From Acidimicrobiales bacterium (GTDB lineage: Bacteria; Actinomycetota; Acidimicrobiia; Acidimicrobiales; DATDAH01), in assembly GCA_016794585.1 (NCBI GenBank), contig JAEUJM010000017.1, positions 62,001 to 126,000 of the forward strand: a stretch of DNA of 64,000 nucleotides. The letters are read 5' to 3'. The translations under genes were made by a program, and so were the position numbers. The notes under the pieces are model-generated. The model saw only the letters and a list, made by a program, of their open reading frames with translations, searched no databases and was not told the origin of the DNA. This document shows positions 54,413-64,000 of the stretch, piece by piece; position 1 is the first letter of the stretch; every line of letters starts with the position of its first letter.

Positions 54413-55045
54413 CTAGGCCGCCAGGCCGGGGAAGAGGCCCTTGAGGCCCGTGGAGAGCACGCCGAAGGCGATGGCCACCAACACGATGCCGAAGAGGCGG
54501 GTGAGCACCTCCATGCCTGTGACGCCCAGCCAGCGGGCCACCGGGACGGCGAACACGTAGACCACGCCGGTGAGCACGGCCATGCCGATGCAGATGGCGG
54601 ACAGGGCGAGCTGGTCCGTGGTGGTGGCGTTGGCGGACGACACCGCGACGATGAAGGCGATGGCGCCGCCGCCCACGTTCAGTGGGATGGCGATGGGGAC
54701 GACCGCCATCGTCCGCCAGTGGGTCTCGGGGTCGGCGTCGGCGGCGGGCCCGGGCAGGCCGTGGCCGGACACCATGGCCATGCCGGTGACCAGCAGGATC
54801 AGGCCACCGGCCGACTGGAGCATGGGCACCGTGACGCCCAACAGGCTGAGCAGGCGCTCGCCCACGAAGACGACGATCACCATGGCCAGGGCCATCGCCA
54901 GCGCCGCCCGGAGCGCCACCTTGCGCTGGGTCGCCAGCGGCAGCCCCTTCGTGTACGACAGGAACGCCCCGACGGTCGTCGGCGGGCTCTGGATGGCGAA
55001 CAGGCCGGTGGCGAACAGCAACAGGTCGTGGCTCGTCACGGTCAT
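54413..55045 (-). CDS. MarC family integral membrane protein
   Basis: 210 aa with six membrane helices: LLLFATGLFAIQSPPTTVGAFLS, RAALAMALAMVIVVFVG, SAGGLILLVTGMAMVSG, VVPIAIPLNVGGGAIAFIVAVS and two more. The two helix-breaking segments (AIQSPP, AIPLNVGGGA) are MarC hallmarks. The E. coli protein's link to antibiotic resistance was withdrawn and its function remains unknown. It converges with ispG and is divergent from proS. Confidence 0.92.
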   Translation of the reverse strand: MTVTSHDLLLFATGLFAIQSPPTTVGAFLSYTKGLPLATQRKVALRAALAMALAMVIVVFVGERLLSLLGVTVPMLQSAGGLILLVTGMAMVSGHGLPGPAADADPETHWRTMAVVPIAIPLNVGGGAIAFIVAVSSANATTTDQLALSAICIGMAVLTGVVYVFAVPVARWLGVTGMEVLTRLFGIVLVAIAFGVLSTGLKGLFPGLAA

Positions 55046-55079
55046 GGGCTATCACGCCGGGGGAGTGGGGCGTCGCCCG

Positions 55080-55085
55080 TAAGAT
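55080..55085 (+). promoter_or_regulatory. -10 TAAGAT, leaderless start of proS
   Basis: TAAGAT ends 6 nt before the ATG at 55092. Confidence 0.5.
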
Positions 55086-55091
55086 CAGCCG

Positions 55092-56504
55092 ATGGCCAAG
55101 CCCCCCGTGTTGACCCCGCAGGCCGACGACTTCCCCCGGTGGTACCAGGACGTCATCGCCAAGGCCGAGCTGGCCGACAACGGGCCGGTGCGCGGGACGA
55201 TGGTGATCCGCCCCTACGGCTACGCCCTCTGGGAGCGGATGCAAGCCGAGGTGGACCGCCGCATCAAGGAAGCGGGCGCCGACAACGCCTACTTCCCGCT
55301 GTTCATCCCCATGGAGTTCTTCCAGCGTGAGGCCGAGCACGTCGAGGGCTTCAGCCCCGAGCTGGCGGTCGTCACCGTGGGCGGCGGCAAGGAGCTCGAG
55401 GAGCCCATCGCGGTCCGGCCCACCAGCGAGACCGTCATCAACCACTACTTCGCCAAGTGGATCCAGAGCTACCGGGACCTGCCGCTCTGCGTGAACAACT
55501 GGTCCAACGTGGTCCGCTGGGAGATGCGGCCCCGCCTGTTCCTGCGCACCACCGAGTTCCTCTGGCAGGAGGGCCACACCTGCCACGCCACCTACGAGGA
55601 CGCCCGTGACTACGCCCGACGCATCCTCGACGACGTCTACGCCGACTTCATGGTCAACGTGTTGGCCGTACCGGTGCACCTCGGGCCGAAGACGGCCAGC
55701 GAGCGCTTCGCCGGGGCCATCAACACCCTCGCCTGCGAGGCCATGATGCGCGACGGGAAAGCCCTGCAGATGGGCACCAGCCACGAGCTGGGCCAGAACT
55801 TCGCCAAGGCCTTCGACGTCACCTACCTGGACCAGGGCGGCTCCCAGCAGCACGCCTGGCAGACGTCGTGGGGCGTCTCCACCCGCATGGTGGGTGGCCT
55901 GATCATGACCCACGGCGATGACAAGGGCTTGAAGGTGCCGCCCGCGCTGGCGCCCATCCAGGCCGTGGTGCTCGCCGTGCGCGACGAGCCCGAGGTGCTC
56001 GAGAAGACGGCGGCGCTCGCCGCCGAGCTGCGCGAGCACGGCGTGCGGGTCGAGCTCGACCAGCGCGTCGACGTCTCGTTCGGGCGTCGGGCCACCGACT
56101 GGGAGATCAAGGGCGTGCCCGTGCGCATCGAGGTGGGCCCGCGGGACCTGGCCGAGGGCAACGTCACGCTCGTCGAGCGCCAGGACGGCGAGAAGTCGGC
56201 CATCCACCTCGCCGGCGTGGCCACGGCGGTCAAGGCCGCGCTCGACAGCATGCAGGCCAACCTGCTGCGTGAGGCCACCGAGTTCCGGGACGCGCACACC
56301 GCCGACGTCACGGGCGTGGAAGAGGCGCTCGAGGCGGCCGCCACGGGGTTCGCCCGCATCCCCTGGGCCGTCCTGGGGGAGGAGGGCGAGGCCCGCCTGG
56401 CCCAGAACGCGGTCACGGTGCGCTGCCTCCAACGGGCCGACGGCTCGTGCCCGGACGGGGCCGACGAGGCCGACCTCGTGGCGGTGGTGGGCCGCTCCTA
56501 CTGA
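55092..56504 (+). CDS. proS: Prolyl-tRNA synthetase, archaeal/eukaryotic type
   Basis: 470 aa. Class II motifs: motif 1 GTMVIRPYGYALWERMQAEVDRR region, motif 2 VRWEMRPRLFLRTTEFLWQEGH, motif 3 GLIMTHGDDKGLKVPPALAP, then the anticodon-binding domain and a C-terminal zinc-like domain ending in Tyr (VVGRSY). It lacks the 180-residue editing insertion of the bacterial ProS, so it belongs to the short archaeal-type group seen in some bacteria. Confidence 0.96.
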   Translation: MAKPPVLTPQADDFPRWYQDVIAKAELADNGPVRGTMVIRPYGYALWERMQAEVDRRIKEAGADNAYFPLFIPMEFFQREAEHVEGFSPELAVVTVGGGKELEEPIAVRPTSETVINHYFAKWIQSYRDLPLCVNNWSNVVRWEMRPRLFLRTTEFLWQEGHTCHATYEDARDYARRILDDVYADFMVNVLAVPVHLGPKTASERFAGAINTLACEAMMRDGKALQMGTSHELGQNFAKAFDVTYLDQGGSQQHAWQTSWGVSTRMVGGLIMTHGDDKGLKVPPALAPIQAVVLAVRDEPEVLEKTAALAAELREHGVRVELDQRVDVSFGRRATDWEIKGVPVRIEVGPRDLAEGNVTLVERQDGEKSAIHLAGVATAVKAALDSMQANLLREATEFRDAHTADVTGVEEALEAAATGFARIPWAVLGEEGEARLAQNAVTVRCLQRADGSCPDGADEADLVAVVGRSY

Positions 56505-56547
56505 CCGGCCGAGCGACCGGGGCGGGTGCTGGCGGGGTCGATCCCGC

Positions 56548-56553
56548 TATACT
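56548..56553 (+). promoter_or_regulatory. -10 TATACT of the rimP-nusA-infB operon
   Basis: TATACT, 91 nt before the rimP ATG; with a start near 56560 the leader is about 80 nt and contains a terminator-like hairpin. Confidence 0.5.
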
Positions 56554-56582
56554 TTGGCCGTCTTTCGTTCGAGTTGGTCCGT

Positions 56583-56609
56583 AAAGGCGTGGGCTCGGCC
56601 CACGCCTTT
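56583..56609 (+). terminator. Attenuator-like hairpin in the rimP-nusA leader
   Basis: Perfect 12-bp stem AAAGGCGTGGGC / GCCCACGCCTTT with the 3-nt loop TCG, followed by GGTTTCTCTCC. It lies between the operon promoter and the rimP ribosome-binding site and looks like an intrinsic terminator or attenuator. Confidence 0.7.
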
Positions 56610-56638
56610 GGTTTCTCTCCAGGGAGGTGTGCACGCTC

Positions 56639-57174
56639 ATGAGCTCCATCGATCGCCTGCGCGCGCTCGTCCTGCCGCTGGTGGAGGAACGGGGCCTCGA
56701 GCTCTACGACATCGAGCAGTCCGGCTCCACCCTGCAGATCCTCGTGTCCGGCCCCGGTGGGGTGGACGTGGGGGCCCTCAGCGATCTCAGCCGGGCCGTC
56801 TCGCGCACCCTCGACGAGCACGACCCCATCCCGGGCAAGTACGTCCTCGAGGTCTCGAGCCCCGGCCTCGAACGGCCGCTGCGCCGCCCTGAGCACTATC
56901 AGGGCGCCGTCGGCAGCGACGTCACCATCAAGACCGTCGCCGGCACCGAGGGCGACCGCCGCGTGCGTGGGGTCGTCGTCGAGGCGGACGACACCAGCGT
57001 GCTGCTCGCCCTCGCCGACGGCGGCGAGCGCCGCATCGACTATCGCGACGTCGAGCGCGCCCGCACCGTCTTCGAGTGGGAAGCCACCCCGAAGTCGGCG
57101 GCGAAGGCCCGACCGAAGAACGACCACAACGACCGCCATGCCGTCACCGCGACGCCGACCGACAGGAGCGGGAA

Positions 57175-57178
<4 letters not shown>
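56639..57178 (+). CDS. rimP: Ribosome maturation factor RimP
   Basis: 179 aa. LVLPLVEERGLELYDIEQ, DLSRAVSRTLDEHDPIPGKYVLEVSSPGLERPLRRPEHY are RimP signatures; the C-terminal SH3-like domain is followed by a short Lys/Asp-rich tail. GGGAGG ends 11 nt before the ATG; GTG 56627 overlaps that site and is less likely. Needed for 30S maturation. The stop overlaps nusA (ATGA). Confidence 0.95.
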
Positions 57179-58527
<1,349 letters not shown>

Positions 58528-58544
58528 TCCTGGTCGCCCCGACG

Positions 58545-58853
58545 ATGGCGTCGCGCGTCGCGCCCGTACGCACCTGCATCGGGTGTCGCCGTCCGGCGTC
58601 GCCCACCGAGCTGGTGCGCGTGGTGCGATCGGTGGACGGAACCCTCGCCGTGGGTCGTACACTGCCCGGACGGGGCGCCTGGCTGTGCGCCGGCTCCCTG
58701 GCGTGCCTCGAGCAGGCCAGGAGCCGGGGAGCGTTCGGGCGTGCCCTCCGAGGCCCGGTCGACGAGGCCGCCCTCGACACCCTGACCGCCGAGTTGTCCC
58801 TCGGTGCCGCCGCAACGCTTTCGTGCCGCCGGGATCGGCCGCGCGAGGATTGA
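58545..58853 (+). CDS. ylxR: YlxR family RNA-binding protein (DUF448)
   Basis: 102 aa. [20 protein letters not shown] and [22 protein letters not shown] are YlxR motifs. The family sits between nusA and infB and has been shown to modulate RNase P activity and gene expression. Start ATG 17 bp after nusA. Confidence 0.95.
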
Positions 58854-58884
58854 TCGAACCAACCGAAAGGCTGAGAGAACCCCA

Positions 58885-61776
58885 GTGGCGTCAAGTATCC
58901 GCGTGTACGAGCTGGCACGAGAGCTCGGGCTCACCAACAAGGAGACGCTCGACCTCTGCGACGCGCTCGGGATCGGGGTCAAGAGCCACTCGTCGAGCGT
59001 GGTCGAGGCCCAGGCCGACCGCGTCCGCCGCAAGGCCGAGCGCGAAGGCCTGATCCGGGACGTCCAGCCCGAGGAGCCCGAGGCCGAGAAGCCCGTCTCG
59101 AAGACGGCCAAGGCCAAGGCCGCCACGAAGTCGACCAAGAAGGCCCCGGCCAAGAAGGCCGCCGCCCCTGCTGCGGAGGAGGCGCCGGACACGGCCGCCG
59201 CTCCCAAGAAGGCCGCCACGAAGAAGGCCGCGGCCAAGAAGGCCGCCGCCCCCGCCGCTGCTCCCGAGCCCGAGGCCACCGAGGCCCCGACGCCGGCCAC
59301 CGCGGACGCACCGCCCGTCGAGGCCGAGCCTGAGCCCGAGGCGCCCGCTGCGCCGGTCGAGCCCGCCGCTCCCCGGCGCGTCGTGCGCTCCAGCGGGAGC
59401 GAGCACCCGCCGCGTCGCGAGGAGGATCCGGGCGTCGCCGCGGCCGCTCCCCGGCCCACGCCGCCTCCCGCCGCACCCCCCGCCCCGGCCGCACCGCCGG
59501 CGAGTGCTCCGGCCACGCCGGCCCCCGCTGCGGCCGCCGCCGAAGCACCTGCGGCCGAGGCCGCTGCCGCCGGCGCCGCTCCTGCGGCCGCGGACGCCAC
59601 GGCCCCTCGCCCCGTCTCGCCGAGCGGCAAGCCCATCCCGCCGCCGCCCGGCCCGCCCACGTCTCGCTCGGGCAAGCCCATCCCCCCGCCCCCGGGCGCG
59701 GGTGGCCGCGGCCCCGCCGCCGCCCGTCCCACGGGCGGTCCCCGCCCCGCGGGTGGTGTCGGCCGTCCCCGCCCGCCCATGGGCGGTCCTCGTCAGTCGG
59801 TGCCCGGCGCCGGCCCCGCACCGGGTCGTCCCGGTGGCGGCGGTCCCGGCGGTGGCCCCGGTGGTGGTCGTGGCGGTCCGCAGCAGCGGCCGCCACGTCG
59901 GCGCAAGGGGCGTCGTCGTCGCAGCCGTGAGGAGCTGCAGCCGATCGACATGCCGGTGTACACCCCCACCGATGCGGCGGTGCCCGAGGGCACCATCGTC
60001 GTCGAGCGGGCCACCACCCCCATCGAGCTCGGCCCCAAGCTGAACCGCACCGCGGCCGACGTCGTGCGCTTCCTCATGCAGCAGGGCGAGATGGTCACCG
60101 CCACCCAGTCGCTCTCCGACGAGATGATCGAGCTGTTCGCGGCGGAGATCGGTGCCGAGATCCGCCTCGTCGACCCCGGCGAGGAGCAGGAGGTCGAGCT
60201 CCAGAAGCTCCTCATGCTCCCCGAGGACGAAGAGGACGAGGACGACCCCGACGCCGTCGTGCGCCCGCCGGTCATCACCGTCATGGGCCACGTCGACCAC
60301 GGCAAGACCAAGCTCCTCGACCGCATTCGCTCCGCGAACGTGGTCGAGGGCGAGGCCGGCGGCATCACCCAGCACATCGGGGCCTACCAGGTCGAGCACG
60401 ACGGGCGGCCGCTCACCTTCATCGACACCCCGGGTCACGAGGCCTTCACCGCGATGCGCTCTCGAGGCGCCAACGCCACCGACATCGTGGTGCTGGTCGT
60501 GGCCGCCGACGACGGCGTGATGCCCCAGACCCTCGAGGCACTGGACCACGCCCGCGCCGCGGACGTGCCCATCGTCGTGGCCCTCAACAAGATCGACCGC
60601 GAGAACGCCGACCCCACCCGGGTGATGACCCAGCTCAGCGAGCGGGGCCTCACCCCCGAGGAGTGGAGCGGCGACACCGTCATGGTGCCGGTCTCCGCAC
60701 TCACCGGTGAGGGTGTCGACGACCTCATCGAGAACCTCCTCGTGGTGGCCGAGGTCGAGGACCTCCAGGCCAACCCCAACGGTCGCGCCCAGGGCGTGGT
60801 CCTCGAGGCCAACCTCGACACCGGTCGCGGTCCCGTGGCCACGGTCCTGGTCCAGCGCGGCACCCTCAAGGTCGGCGACCCGCTCGTCGCCGGTGCCACC
60901 TGGGGTCGGGTCCGGGCCCTGATCGACGACACCGGCAAGCAGGTCAAGGAAGCCGGCCCGTCGGCGCCCGTCCAGGTGCTGGGCCTGTCCGACGTCGCCG
61001 CCGCCGGCGACGACTTCGTGGTCGCTCCCGACGAGAAGACGGCCCGCAACGTGGCCGACACGCGCGAGCACTGGCACCGCGTCGCCAACATCGGGCGCGA
61101 GGCGCACGCCATGAGCGGTGGCGCCAAGCTCGAGGACATCTTCCAGCAGATCCAGGCCGGCGAGCCCGCCACGCTGAACCTGATCGTCAAGGCCGACGTG
61201 AACGGCTCGCTCGAGGCGCTCACCGGCAGCCTGAAGAAGCTCGAGCGCGACGAGGTCAAGCTCTCGTTCGTGCTCCGCGGCGTCGGTGGGATCACCATCT
61301 CCGACGTCGAGCTGGCGGCGGCGTCCGACGCCACCATCATCGGCTTCAACGTGCGGCCCGATCGCAAGGGCCGCGAGCTCGCCGAGCACGAAGGCGTCGA
61401 GATCCGCACCTACGAGGTCATCTACCAGGTCCTCGAGGACATCGAGAACGCCATGGTGGGCATGCTCGAGCCCGAGTACGAAGAGGTGGTCACCGGCGAC
61501 GCCGAGGTCCGCGAGATCTTCCGGGTGCCCCGCATCGGGGCCATCGCCGGCTGCTTCGTGCAGAACGGCACCATCACCCGTGGCTCGAAGGTGCGCTTCC
61601 TGCGGGAGGGCACCATCATCTGGAAGGGCACCGTCTCGTCGCTGCGCCGCTTCAAGGACGACGTCCGCGAGGTGCAGTCGGGCTTCGAGTGCGGCATCGG
61701 GCTCTCCGACTTCCAGGACCTCAAGCCCGGGGACATCATCGAGACCTTCGAAGAGCGGGAGATCCCCCGCTCGTAG
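58885..61776 (+). CDS. infB: Translation initiation factor IF-2
   Basis: 963 aa from GTG. IF2_N motif ([20 protein letters not shown]), a 300-residue Ala/Lys/Pro then Pro/Gly/Arg-rich linker, a second IF2_N-like unit ([20 protein letters not shown]), and the GTPase domain: [12 protein letters not shown] (G1), [12 protein letters not shown] (G3), NKID (G4), VSAL (G5), then domains II-IV to the fMet-tRNA-binding C terminus. Brings initiator tRNA to the 30S subunit. Confidence 0.98.
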
Positions 61777-61803
61777 GCCGGCCGGTCGGGGAGGAGCGCA
61801 ACC

Positions 61804-62094
61804 GTGCACGTCCTCGCGCTGGCCGTCGAGCTCCATCTCCCCGAGTGCCGGTCGCTGAAGGCCAAGCGATCGGTGCTCAAGCCCGTCACCGAGGGCGCAC
61901 GTCGGCGTTACAACGTCGCCGTCGCCGAGACCGACCACCAGAACACCTGGCAGCGAGCCGCCATCGGCGTGGCGGCCGTGTCCGCCACCCCCCACCACGC
62001 CGAAGAGGTCATCGACGAGGTGGAGCGCTTCATCTGGTCCTTCCCGAACGTGCAGGTCCTCTCGGCCACCCGCTCCTGGATGGAGATCGACTGA
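61804..62094 (+). CDS. YlxP family protein (DUF503)
   Basis: 96 aa from GTG. LPECRSLKAKRSVLKPV and YNVAVAETDHQNTWQRAAIGVAAV match DUF503, a small alpha/beta protein found almost only between infB and rbfA; its role is not established, presumed ribosome-related. Confidence 0.95.
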   Translation: MHVLALAVELHLPECRSLKAKRSVLKPVTEGARRRYNVAVAETDHQNTWQRAAIGVAAVSATPHHAEEVIDEVERFIWSFPNVQVLSATRSWMEID

Positions 62095-62095
62095 C

Positions 62096-62461
62096 ATGGC
62101 TCGCCGCTCGCGCTCGCGCGACTATCCCCGCACCGCCCGCCTCAACGAGCTCCTCCGTGAGATCATCGCCGAGGCCCTCGATCGCATCGACGACGACCGC
62201 CTGCCCCTGGTGACGGTCACGTCGGTCGACGTCGACGCCGACCTCAAGCGCGCCGTCGTCTACATCGCCAGCCTGGACGAGGACGCCGACGACGAGACCC
62301 TCGAGGCGCTCGGCGAGGCCCGCGTCCGGCTCCAGGGGGCGGTCGCCCGAGAGGCGCGCATCAAGCGCACGCCCGAGCTGGTCTTCCGCATCGACGACGT
62401 CCTGCGCACCGCCGAGCGCATCGACGAGCTCCTGCGCAACGAGCCTCCGCAGGAGCAGTGA
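62096..62461 (+). CDS. rbfA: Ribosome-binding factor A
   Basis: 121 aa. LNELLREIIAEALDRIDDDRLPLVTVTSVDVDADLKRAVVYI is the KH-like RbfA core, and RIKRTPELVFRIDDVL the C-terminal strand. Needed for 16S rRNA 5'-end maturation and cold growth. Starts 1 bp after the ylxP stop. Confidence 0.97.
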   Translation: MARRSRSRDYPRTARLNELLREIIAEALDRIDDDRLPLVTVTSVDVDADLKRAVVYIASLDEDADDETLEALGEARVRLQGAVAREARIKRTPELVFRIDDVLRTAERIDELLRNEPPQEQ

Positions 62462-62468
62462 CCCCACG

Positions 62469-63371
62469 ATGAGCGGTGGGGGCGCCAAGGCCGTGGTGGA
62501 CGGTCTGGCGGTGGTGGACAAGGCCGCGGGCTGGACGTCCCACGATGTCGTCGCGAAGGCACGAGGCATCGTCGGCCAGAAGAAGGTGGGCCACTCCGGC
62601 ACGCTCGACCCCGACGCCACGGGGGTGCTGCTGCTGGGCTTCGGGAAGGTCACCCGGCTGCTGACGTACCTGACCGCGCTCTCGAAGTCCTACGTCGGCG
62701 AGGTGGTCCTCGGGACCGAGACCGACACCCTCGACGCGGCCGGGCAGGTGACGGCCACCCACGACATGCGGGCCGTGACCCTCGAGCAGGCCCGCCTCGC
62801 CGCCGAGGCGTTCGTCGGCGACATCGAGCAGATCCCCCCGATGGTCTCGGCCGTCAAGATCGGGGGGAAGCGCCTGCATGAGCTCGCCCGGGCCGGCGAG
62901 ACGGTCGAGCGGCCACCGAGACCGGTCACCGTGCACCGCCTGCACCTGGACGAGGCCCGCCCGGCCACCGCCGACGAGGCCATGGTCCTGCGCATCGAGG
63001 TGGACTGCTCGTCCGGCACCTACATCCGCACCATCGCCGACGACCTCGGCCATGCGCTGGGAGGCGGCGCCCACCTGCGCAACCTGCGGCGAACGGCCAT
63101 CGGGTCCTTCGGGCTCGACGAGGCCCGCCCGCTCGAGCAGCTCGAGATCCTGGCGCCCGCGGTGGCGATGCGTGACTACCCCTCGCTCACCGTCGACGAC
63201 GCCGTGGCGATGCGGATCGCCAACGGCGCCGTGCTCTCGCGCGTCGAGCTCGGCGTGACGGCGGCCGAGGGCGACGGGCCGTGGGCAGTCCTCTCGGAGG
63301 CGGGTGACCTCGTGGCCGTCTACGAGGGCCGCGATGCCGAGCGGGTGAAGCCTGCGGTGGTCCTCGCCTGA
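62469..63371 (+). CDS. truB: tRNA pseudouridine(55) synthase TruB
   Basis: 300 aa. VVDKAAGWTSHDVVAKARGI, VGHSGTLDPDATGVLLLGFGKVT (catalytic Asp), KSYVGEVVLGTETDT, PPMVSAVKIGGKRLHELAR and VDCSSGTYIRTIADDLG are all present, plus a C-terminal PUA-like domain. Makes pseudouridine 55 in the T-loop. Last gene of the nusA-infB operon. Confidence 0.98.
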   Translation: MSGGGAKAVVDGLAVVDKAAGWTSHDVVAKARGIVGQKKVGHSGTLDPDATGVLLLGFGKVTRLLTYLTALSKSYVGEVVLGTETDTLDAAGQVTATHDMRAVTLEQARLAAEAFVGDIEQIPPMVSAVKIGGKRLHELARAGETVERPPRPVTVHRLHLDEARPATADEAMVLRIEVDCSSGTYIRTIADDLGHALGGGAHLRNLRRTAIGSFGLDEARPLEQLEILAPAVAMRDYPSLTVDDAVAMRIANGAVLSRVELGVTAAEGDGPWAVLSEAGDLVAVYEGRDAERVKPAVVLA

Positions 63372-63431
63372 GCTCCCGACCTGCGGCCGCATCCCCTGTC
63401 CCGACGAGCCGTGGGGCCCGCAGGCGGCCGT

Positions 63432-63437
63432 TACCCT
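63432..63437 (+). promoter_or_regulatory. -10 TACCCT, leaderless start of the last gene
   Basis: TACCCT ends 8 nt before the GTG at 63446. Confidence 0.4.
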
Positions 63438-63445
63438 CGGCCGAC

Positions 63446-64000
63446 GTGGGGGAGCGGGGACCGCAGCGGAGCACGGTGCCGATGCGCTGGCGTGCCGCGC
63501 ACGTGCTCGCGCTCTCGTCCATCGCGTTCGCCCAACCCGTGCTCGACCTGCTGGGTGGCAGCCCGACCTTCTTCGTGGCCCACACCGCAGGGCCCGCCGA
63601 GGTCCTCCTCGTGGCCGTCCTCACCCTCGCGGTGGTCCCCGCGGTGCTCATCGCTCTGGAGCTGCTGGTCGCCCTGTTCAGCGCACGGTGGGCGTGGCGG
63701 CTGCACCTCGGCCTCATGGCGGGCCTCGGTGGCCTGATCGTCGCCCAGTTCGTCGACCGCATCCCCGGTTTCGCCTCGGTCCTGGTCCTGGTGGTGGGCA
63801 CCGCGGCCGGTGTCGGCCTGGCCCGCTGGTACCGACGGAGCGAGCCGATCCGGTCGGTCTGCTCGCTGCTCGCCCTCACGCCACTGCTGTTCGCCGCGGT
63901 GTTCGTGTTCGCCTCCCCGGCCCACGGGCTGGTCTTCCCGCCGGAGGTGCAGGCCGCCGACGTGCGGGTGCCCGGCACCCCGCCGCCGATCTTCGTCGTC
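63446..64000 (+). CDS. Multi-helix membrane protein, N-terminal part (possible membrane sulfatase)
   Basis: 185 residues are visible and the frame runs off the window. After MRWRAAHVLALSSIAFAQP there are about five membrane helices (VLLVAVLTLAVVPAVLIALEL, LHLGLMAGLGGLIVA, ASVLVLVVGTAAGVGL, LLALTPLLFAAVFVFASP), then an extracytoplasmic segment ending VPGTPPPIFVV. A membrane bundle followed by such a strand is how membrane-anchored sulfatase/alkaline-phosphatase-superfamily proteins begin, but the catalytic part is not in view. Confidence 0.6.
   Translation, partial: MGERGPQRSTVPMRWRAAHVLALSSIAFAQPVLDLLGGSPTFFVAHTAGPAEVLLVAVLTLAVVPAVLIALELLVALFSARWAWRLHLGLMAGLGGLIVAQFVDRIPGFASVLVLVVGTAAGVGLARWYRRSEPIRSVCSLLALTPLLFAAVFVFASPAHGLVFPPEVQAADVRVPGTPPPIFVV

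Follow-up and report, generated by a model that had tools for sequence, protein, structure and literature searches.

The leader of the rimP-nusA-rnpM-infB operon of an Acidimicrobiales bacterium contains a hairpin that is likely to be a rimP-leader attenuator of this operon, with release of the transcript depending on NusA. The hairpin lies in a 64,000-nucleotide stretch of contig JAEUJM010000017.1 that was analysed as a whole (the window). The hairpin is conserved as a base-paired structure, is tied to rimP, is followed by a T-rich tail and has no competing fold. These features suggest that the promoter-like box upstream is used, that transcription may terminate behind the stem, and that NusA would stimulate this termination and thereby exert feedback on its own operon.

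The operon lies downstream of proS, which encodes proline–tRNA ligase (55092–56504; open reading frame, TIGR00408 above cut-off), and all genes are on the plus strand. The gene for the ribosome maturation factor, rimP (56639–57178), starts with ATG at 56639 and is matched by RimP models with an E value of 2.2e-28, below the curated cut-offs of the narrow models. It is followed by nusA for the transcription termination/antitermination factor, the proposed effector (57175–58527; TIGR01953 above cut-off), by an rnpM-like gene of the YlxR family (58545–58853; NF047356, E 2.2e-14, below cut-off) and by infB for translation initiation factor IF2 (58804–61776 as the longest open reading frame; TIGR00487 above cut-off). 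The longest infB frame shares 50 bases with the rnpM-like gene (58804–58853), and infB probably starts downstream of 58804.

The hairpin occupies 56583–56609 on the plus strand, between a TATACT box and the ribosome-binding site of rimP, and ends 29 nt ahead of the rimP ATG. Its 5' arm AAAGGCGTGGGC (56583–56594) and 3' arm GCCCACGCCTTT (56598–56609) form a perfect stem of 12 Watson–Crick pairs closed by a TCG loop (56595–56597); as RNA, the stem is AAAGGCGUGGGC/GCCCACGCCUUU and the loop UCG. None of 1000 dinucleotide shuffles of 56505–56640 reaches 12 bp, and the longest shuffled stem, of 10 bp, occurs once. The stem and its TCG loop, as the original prediction had placed them in the rimP-nusA-infB leader, are thus confirmed, and the ribosome-binding site that it expected behind the hairpin is found as AGGGAGG at 56621–56627. 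A scan of 55000–64000 finds five terminator-like sites against 1.6 expected; the rimP-leader hairpin is among them, and its stem (13 pairs including a G-T pair) is much longer than any other. The hairpin on its own folds with -21.4 kcal/mol. The whole fold of the 86-nt leader is only moderately better than those of its own shuffles (z -1.77; 10 of 200 shuffles are equally good). When the hairpin is excluded from folding, the leader reaches -5.8 kcal/mol compared with -30.5 kcal/mol, and no competing fold that could serve as an antiterminator was found in the window leader. Directly behind the stem lies the likely pausing or termination site, an interrupted U-rich stretch, UUUGGUUUCUCU (56607–56618), in which 8 of 12 bases are U. 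Because two G and two C break what would otherwise be a clean U run, termination in the window may be weak.

A NusA-based scan provided 80 related loci, most of them in records titled as Acidimicrobiia or unplaced Actinomycetota. Among these, 78 were kept; L031, in which no rimP was found, and the truncated L027 were left out. The pattern CGTGG-N5-16-CCACG is present no more than 400 nt ahead of rimP in 68 of the 78 leaders, against a mean of 1.3 and a maximum of 4 in shuffles. Three of the ten misses (L022, L058 and L081) have the same 5' arm, paired via U-G, and three others (L059, L064 and L078) have the same arms with a longer loop, so the loop tolerates insertions. The long loop of these three may contain a second hairpin. 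In the remaining four of the 78 leaders (L047, L048, L057 and L076) the hairpin was not found; in L048 an assembly run of G occupies the hairpin place, and in L047 rimP follows closely behind ispG with no leader. The GGGc...gCCC core, GGGC-TCG-GCCC inside the window stem, recurs in the relatives. Their tail is T-rich, often TTTTGTTT: across 71 leaders, the T fraction after CCACG is 0.83–0.93 at the third to fifth base and 0.41–0.69 over the next seven. Three assembled genomes titled Bifidobacterium breve and Acidobacteria (L005, L009 and L049) encode a NusA 77–83% identical to that of the window in the best segment and carry the same hairpin; their titles are probably wrong.

The hairpin is tied to rimP, whatever gene stands upstream. 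Among proS, ispG and a marC-like gene, the nearest upstream match in the 71 leaders, window included, is proS in 36, ispG in 29 and none in 6, with the nearest match at least 400 nt away in 13, where another gene may intervene. These counts bear on the reading that the hairpin is simply the 3' terminator of proS and plays no role in rimP control. It lies 79 nt past the proS stop codon and resembles an intrinsic terminator. However, the hairpin accompanies rimP across the phylum, ispG or neither gene stands upstream in many leaders, and the hairpin is mostly separated from the upstream gene by a -10-like box. Moreover, a search of the own genome on both strands with a model built from 69 sequences (R1) at E 0.01 gives the rimP-leader site as its sole match, so that no similar hairpin stands behind another gene and no regulon of further sites emerges at this threshold. 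A mere proS terminator is therefore quite improbable, and the hairpin may also serve to stop transcription that reads through from proS. The bare core CGTGGGCN{3,6}GCCCACG occurs at four places in the own genome; because the pattern read backward also occurs, at two places, the core alone says little.

The TATACT hexamer at 56548–56553 on the plus strand, which the original prediction took for the promoter, stands as a -10-like box, with transcription expected to start near 56560; no -35 box is recognisable ahead of it, and a sigma-70 scan gives zero sites. A -10-like hexamer with at least five of six matches recurs in 33 of the 71 related leaders compared with about 7 in mononucleotide shuffles, mostly 28–48 nt ahead of the core. 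Because the hairpin stays with rimP and the -10-like box precedes it, the hairpin most likely lies within the rimP transcript. The sole further recurring piece of the leader is a short CGTTC, seen in the window as CGTTCGA (56566–56572, plus strand). It lies no more than 75 nt ahead of the CGTGG core in 34 of the 71 leaders, mostly at 21–23 nt, and within the last 50 nt in 33 leaders compared with 4.5 in shuffles.

Its distribution indicates that the hairpin is of old origin and occurs widely across the phylum. At E 0.01, model R1 has matches in 94 of 396 phylum genomes: the own genome, 25 of the 29 others of the order, 1 of 8 genomes that belong to the class but not to the order and, for the rest, genomes of other classes, where part of the matches are unrelated sites. 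Of 30 phylum loci obtained with R1, 22 adjoin nusA or rimP, including the 21 best, and 8 lie elsewhere (L104 at a contig end). Leaders were also scanned in 116 stretches upstream of nusA, a non-random sample chosen to span families among 385 NusA-bearing genomes; 106 were usable after 7 without a rimP match and 3 that were too short had been dropped. A G[TC]GGG...CCC stem (G[U/C]GGG) with a T-rich tail is present in 77 of the 106 leaders when loops of up to 15 are allowed, compared with a mean of 3.2 and a maximum of 9 in dinucleotide shuffles. The same pattern is found inside rimP in 1 of 106 cases and 310–620 nt upstream in 3 of 104. A stricter scan that demands all six inner pairs and allows loops of up to 40 retains 72 of 106 leaders (1.5 in mononucleotide shuffles). 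On a RimP tree, which is built from a short protein, is unrooted, leaves 41 of 102 inner branches open and joins two long branches, presence and absence of the motif need 11 changes compared with 25.5 for shuffled labels. The motif is missing throughout a clade of 14 (L194–L198, L200, L202–L205 and L207–L210; SH-aLRT 99) and from a further clade of 4 (L192, L199, L201 and L206). Because the motif also occurs outside the phylum, these absences are taken as losses. Judged by the clade of 14, the rimP operon can run without the hairpin.

Comparison of the related leaders for compensatory changes, which the original prediction had proposed as a check, supports pairing of the arms. In an alignment of 69 distinct sequences (A1), from which the spurious pattern match of L027 was excluded and in which L014, L024 and L029 had proved to be duplicates of other rows, 7 of the 12 pairs show changes on both sides. 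Double-changed cells number 50 compared with 11.9 in shuffles, and the covariation score is 0.269 compared with 0.147; none of 500 shuffles is as high in either measure, with counts inflated by kinship because the sequences are not independent. When the partner is slid by 1 to 3 columns, paired cells drop from 93.4% to 63% at most. The rows were picked by their inner CGTGG...CC[AG]CG, so that part of the invariance of those columns comes from the selection itself and the most informative pairs are those free to vary, namely 6-32, 7-31, 8-30 and 14-24. In 40 of the 69 sequences the outermost pair (4-34) does not form, so that the stem is often 11 bp or shorter. The same alignment speaks to the idea that the element is a DNA operator bound by a dimeric repressor. 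A perfect palindrome with a constant core beside a promoter would suit such a protein. However, U-G pairs, which preserve an RNA stem but break a DNA palindrome, occur within the stem in 3 of the 69 related sequences, and in 15 of the 77 phylum leaders the partner of the U in GUGGG is a G. The arms are separated by 3 to about 7 nt, or by a far longer spacer in L059, L064 and L078, and the T-rich tail lies on one side only, behind the stem. A repressor operator is thus highly improbable.

The 5' arm of the stem looks as if it is kept as an RNA sequence beyond what the stem needs. When all 1024 five-base cores were tested in the phylum leaders, GTGGG was found in 71, GCGGG in 7, GGGGG in 2 and GAGGG in none; the core scan fixes the 5' arm by construction, and its evidential value comes from setting all 1024 cores side by side. 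Because GUGGG is kept despite wobble pairing, the arm is apparently conserved as sequence, which suggests that a protein reads it and points to the mutants that should be made. One such reading is that the element is an mRNA hairpin bound by RimP, a ribosomal protein or RNase III, governing translation or decay of rimP mRNA and not termination. The GUGGG core is more constant than terminators need, and in the window the hairpin ends 11 nt ahead of the ribosome-binding site. However, the relatives also have the T-rich tail directly behind the stem, and the hairpin lies anywhere from some 20 to over 110 nt ahead of rimP, a range that does not fit direct control of translation. We consider this reading unlikely and prefer the attenuator. 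A bolder version of the attenuator, which we put forward tentatively and hold to be somewhat doubtful, is that NusA (or RimP) recognises the GUGGG sequence itself in the nascent RNA. The hairpin would then act as a terminator and also as a specific receptor. Such a NusA sensor would have the same age as the phylum and would have been kept in most lineages and lost in one large clade with other control of NusA. The clade without the element offers a natural control.

The attenuator would operate as follows. Transcription would start just past TATACT, and after about 50 nt of RNA the GUGGGC/GCCCAC hairpin would fold. RNA polymerase would pause in the weak U-rich stretch past the hairpin, and NusA should be required for release from such an interrupted U-tract. 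When NusA is abundant, most polymerases would stop and free a short leader RNA of about 55–60 nt; when NusA is scarce, they would continue into the operon. No antiterminator would be needed, since the sensor would be NusA on the polymerase, perhaps aided by reading of the conserved GUGGG arm. For a hairpin ahead of nusA with a weak U-tract and no competing fold, feedback through NusA-stimulated termination is the simplest reading and a plausible one by analogy. Of the attenuation and NusA autoregulation originally predicted, a leader attenuator is supported by position, conservation independent of the upstream gene, compensatory changes, the T-rich tail and a published family, while autoregulation by NusA is made plausible by analogy. 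The idea itself is already known, as an element of this kind was described in 2010.

Covariance models in Rfam give no assignment. The rimP leader of Gammaproteobacteria (RF01770) has no match in the window at its gathering score of 47 bits and none in the genome at E 10; as a control, it scores 102 bits on E. coli (L230, 525–625). A minus-strand match to Ms_IGR-2 (RF02467; 18.6 bits, where the gathering score is 45; E 0.04–0.085) is attributed to chance on the opposite strand of the palindrome, and one to YrlB (E 0.048), far below cut-off, is likewise taken as chance. RF01770 models a longer tandem form, unlike the window hairpin. In the same operon of E. coli, however, a second leader hairpin, GGGC-TTTAG-GCCC followed by T7, corresponds to the window hairpin and is matched by model R1 (L230, 515–553; E 0.021). 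In the accessible literature on rimP leaders and actinobacterial terminators, no study of the element in this order was found, and PMC8060035 makes no mention of ylxS, rimP or autoregulation.

The window element matches the rimP-leader family that Naville and Gautheret described in 2010 (PMC2965389). In the accessible part of that paper, the rimP-leader is the most frequent predicted attenuator, a GGGc(...)gCCC hairpin followed by U and located 4–130 nt ahead of rimP; it is described as having no antiterminator and as absent from other terminators, NusA is proposed as its reader, and its occurrence is given for Firmicutes and Gammaproteobacteria (section 7). Similarly, the window hairpin sits in the 5' leader of the rimP-nusA-infB operon between the -10-like box and rimP, contains GGGc(...)gCCC in its stem (56591–56601), lies within the published distance from the gene start and comes with neither an antiterminator nor a larger conserved element. 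In contrast to the published form, its stem is longer (12 bp), starting AAAGGCGU, its loop is short (3 nt) and its U-tract is interrupted, while the tails of the relatives are T-rich. A 2025 review (PMC12288461) reports that in B. subtilis NusA regulates its own gene by stimulating termination in the nusA 5' leader. The likeness, one of description and not of sequence, consists of a leader terminator ahead of the nusA operon with proposed NusA feedback; here too no antiterminator is seen, and the feedback shown by depletion in B. subtilis is inferred for the window. Against this background, the new elements are an actinobacterial form of the rimP-leader, which has a lineage-specific stem and escapes Rfam's rimP model, and the retention of the GUGGG 5' arm even with wobble pairing. 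The alignment and its compensatory changes suffice to build a covariance model. The most widespread predicted attenuator is thereby extended to a phylum with few predicted terminator sites, and the question left from 2010, why a terminator stem keeps a fixed sequence, is sharpened.
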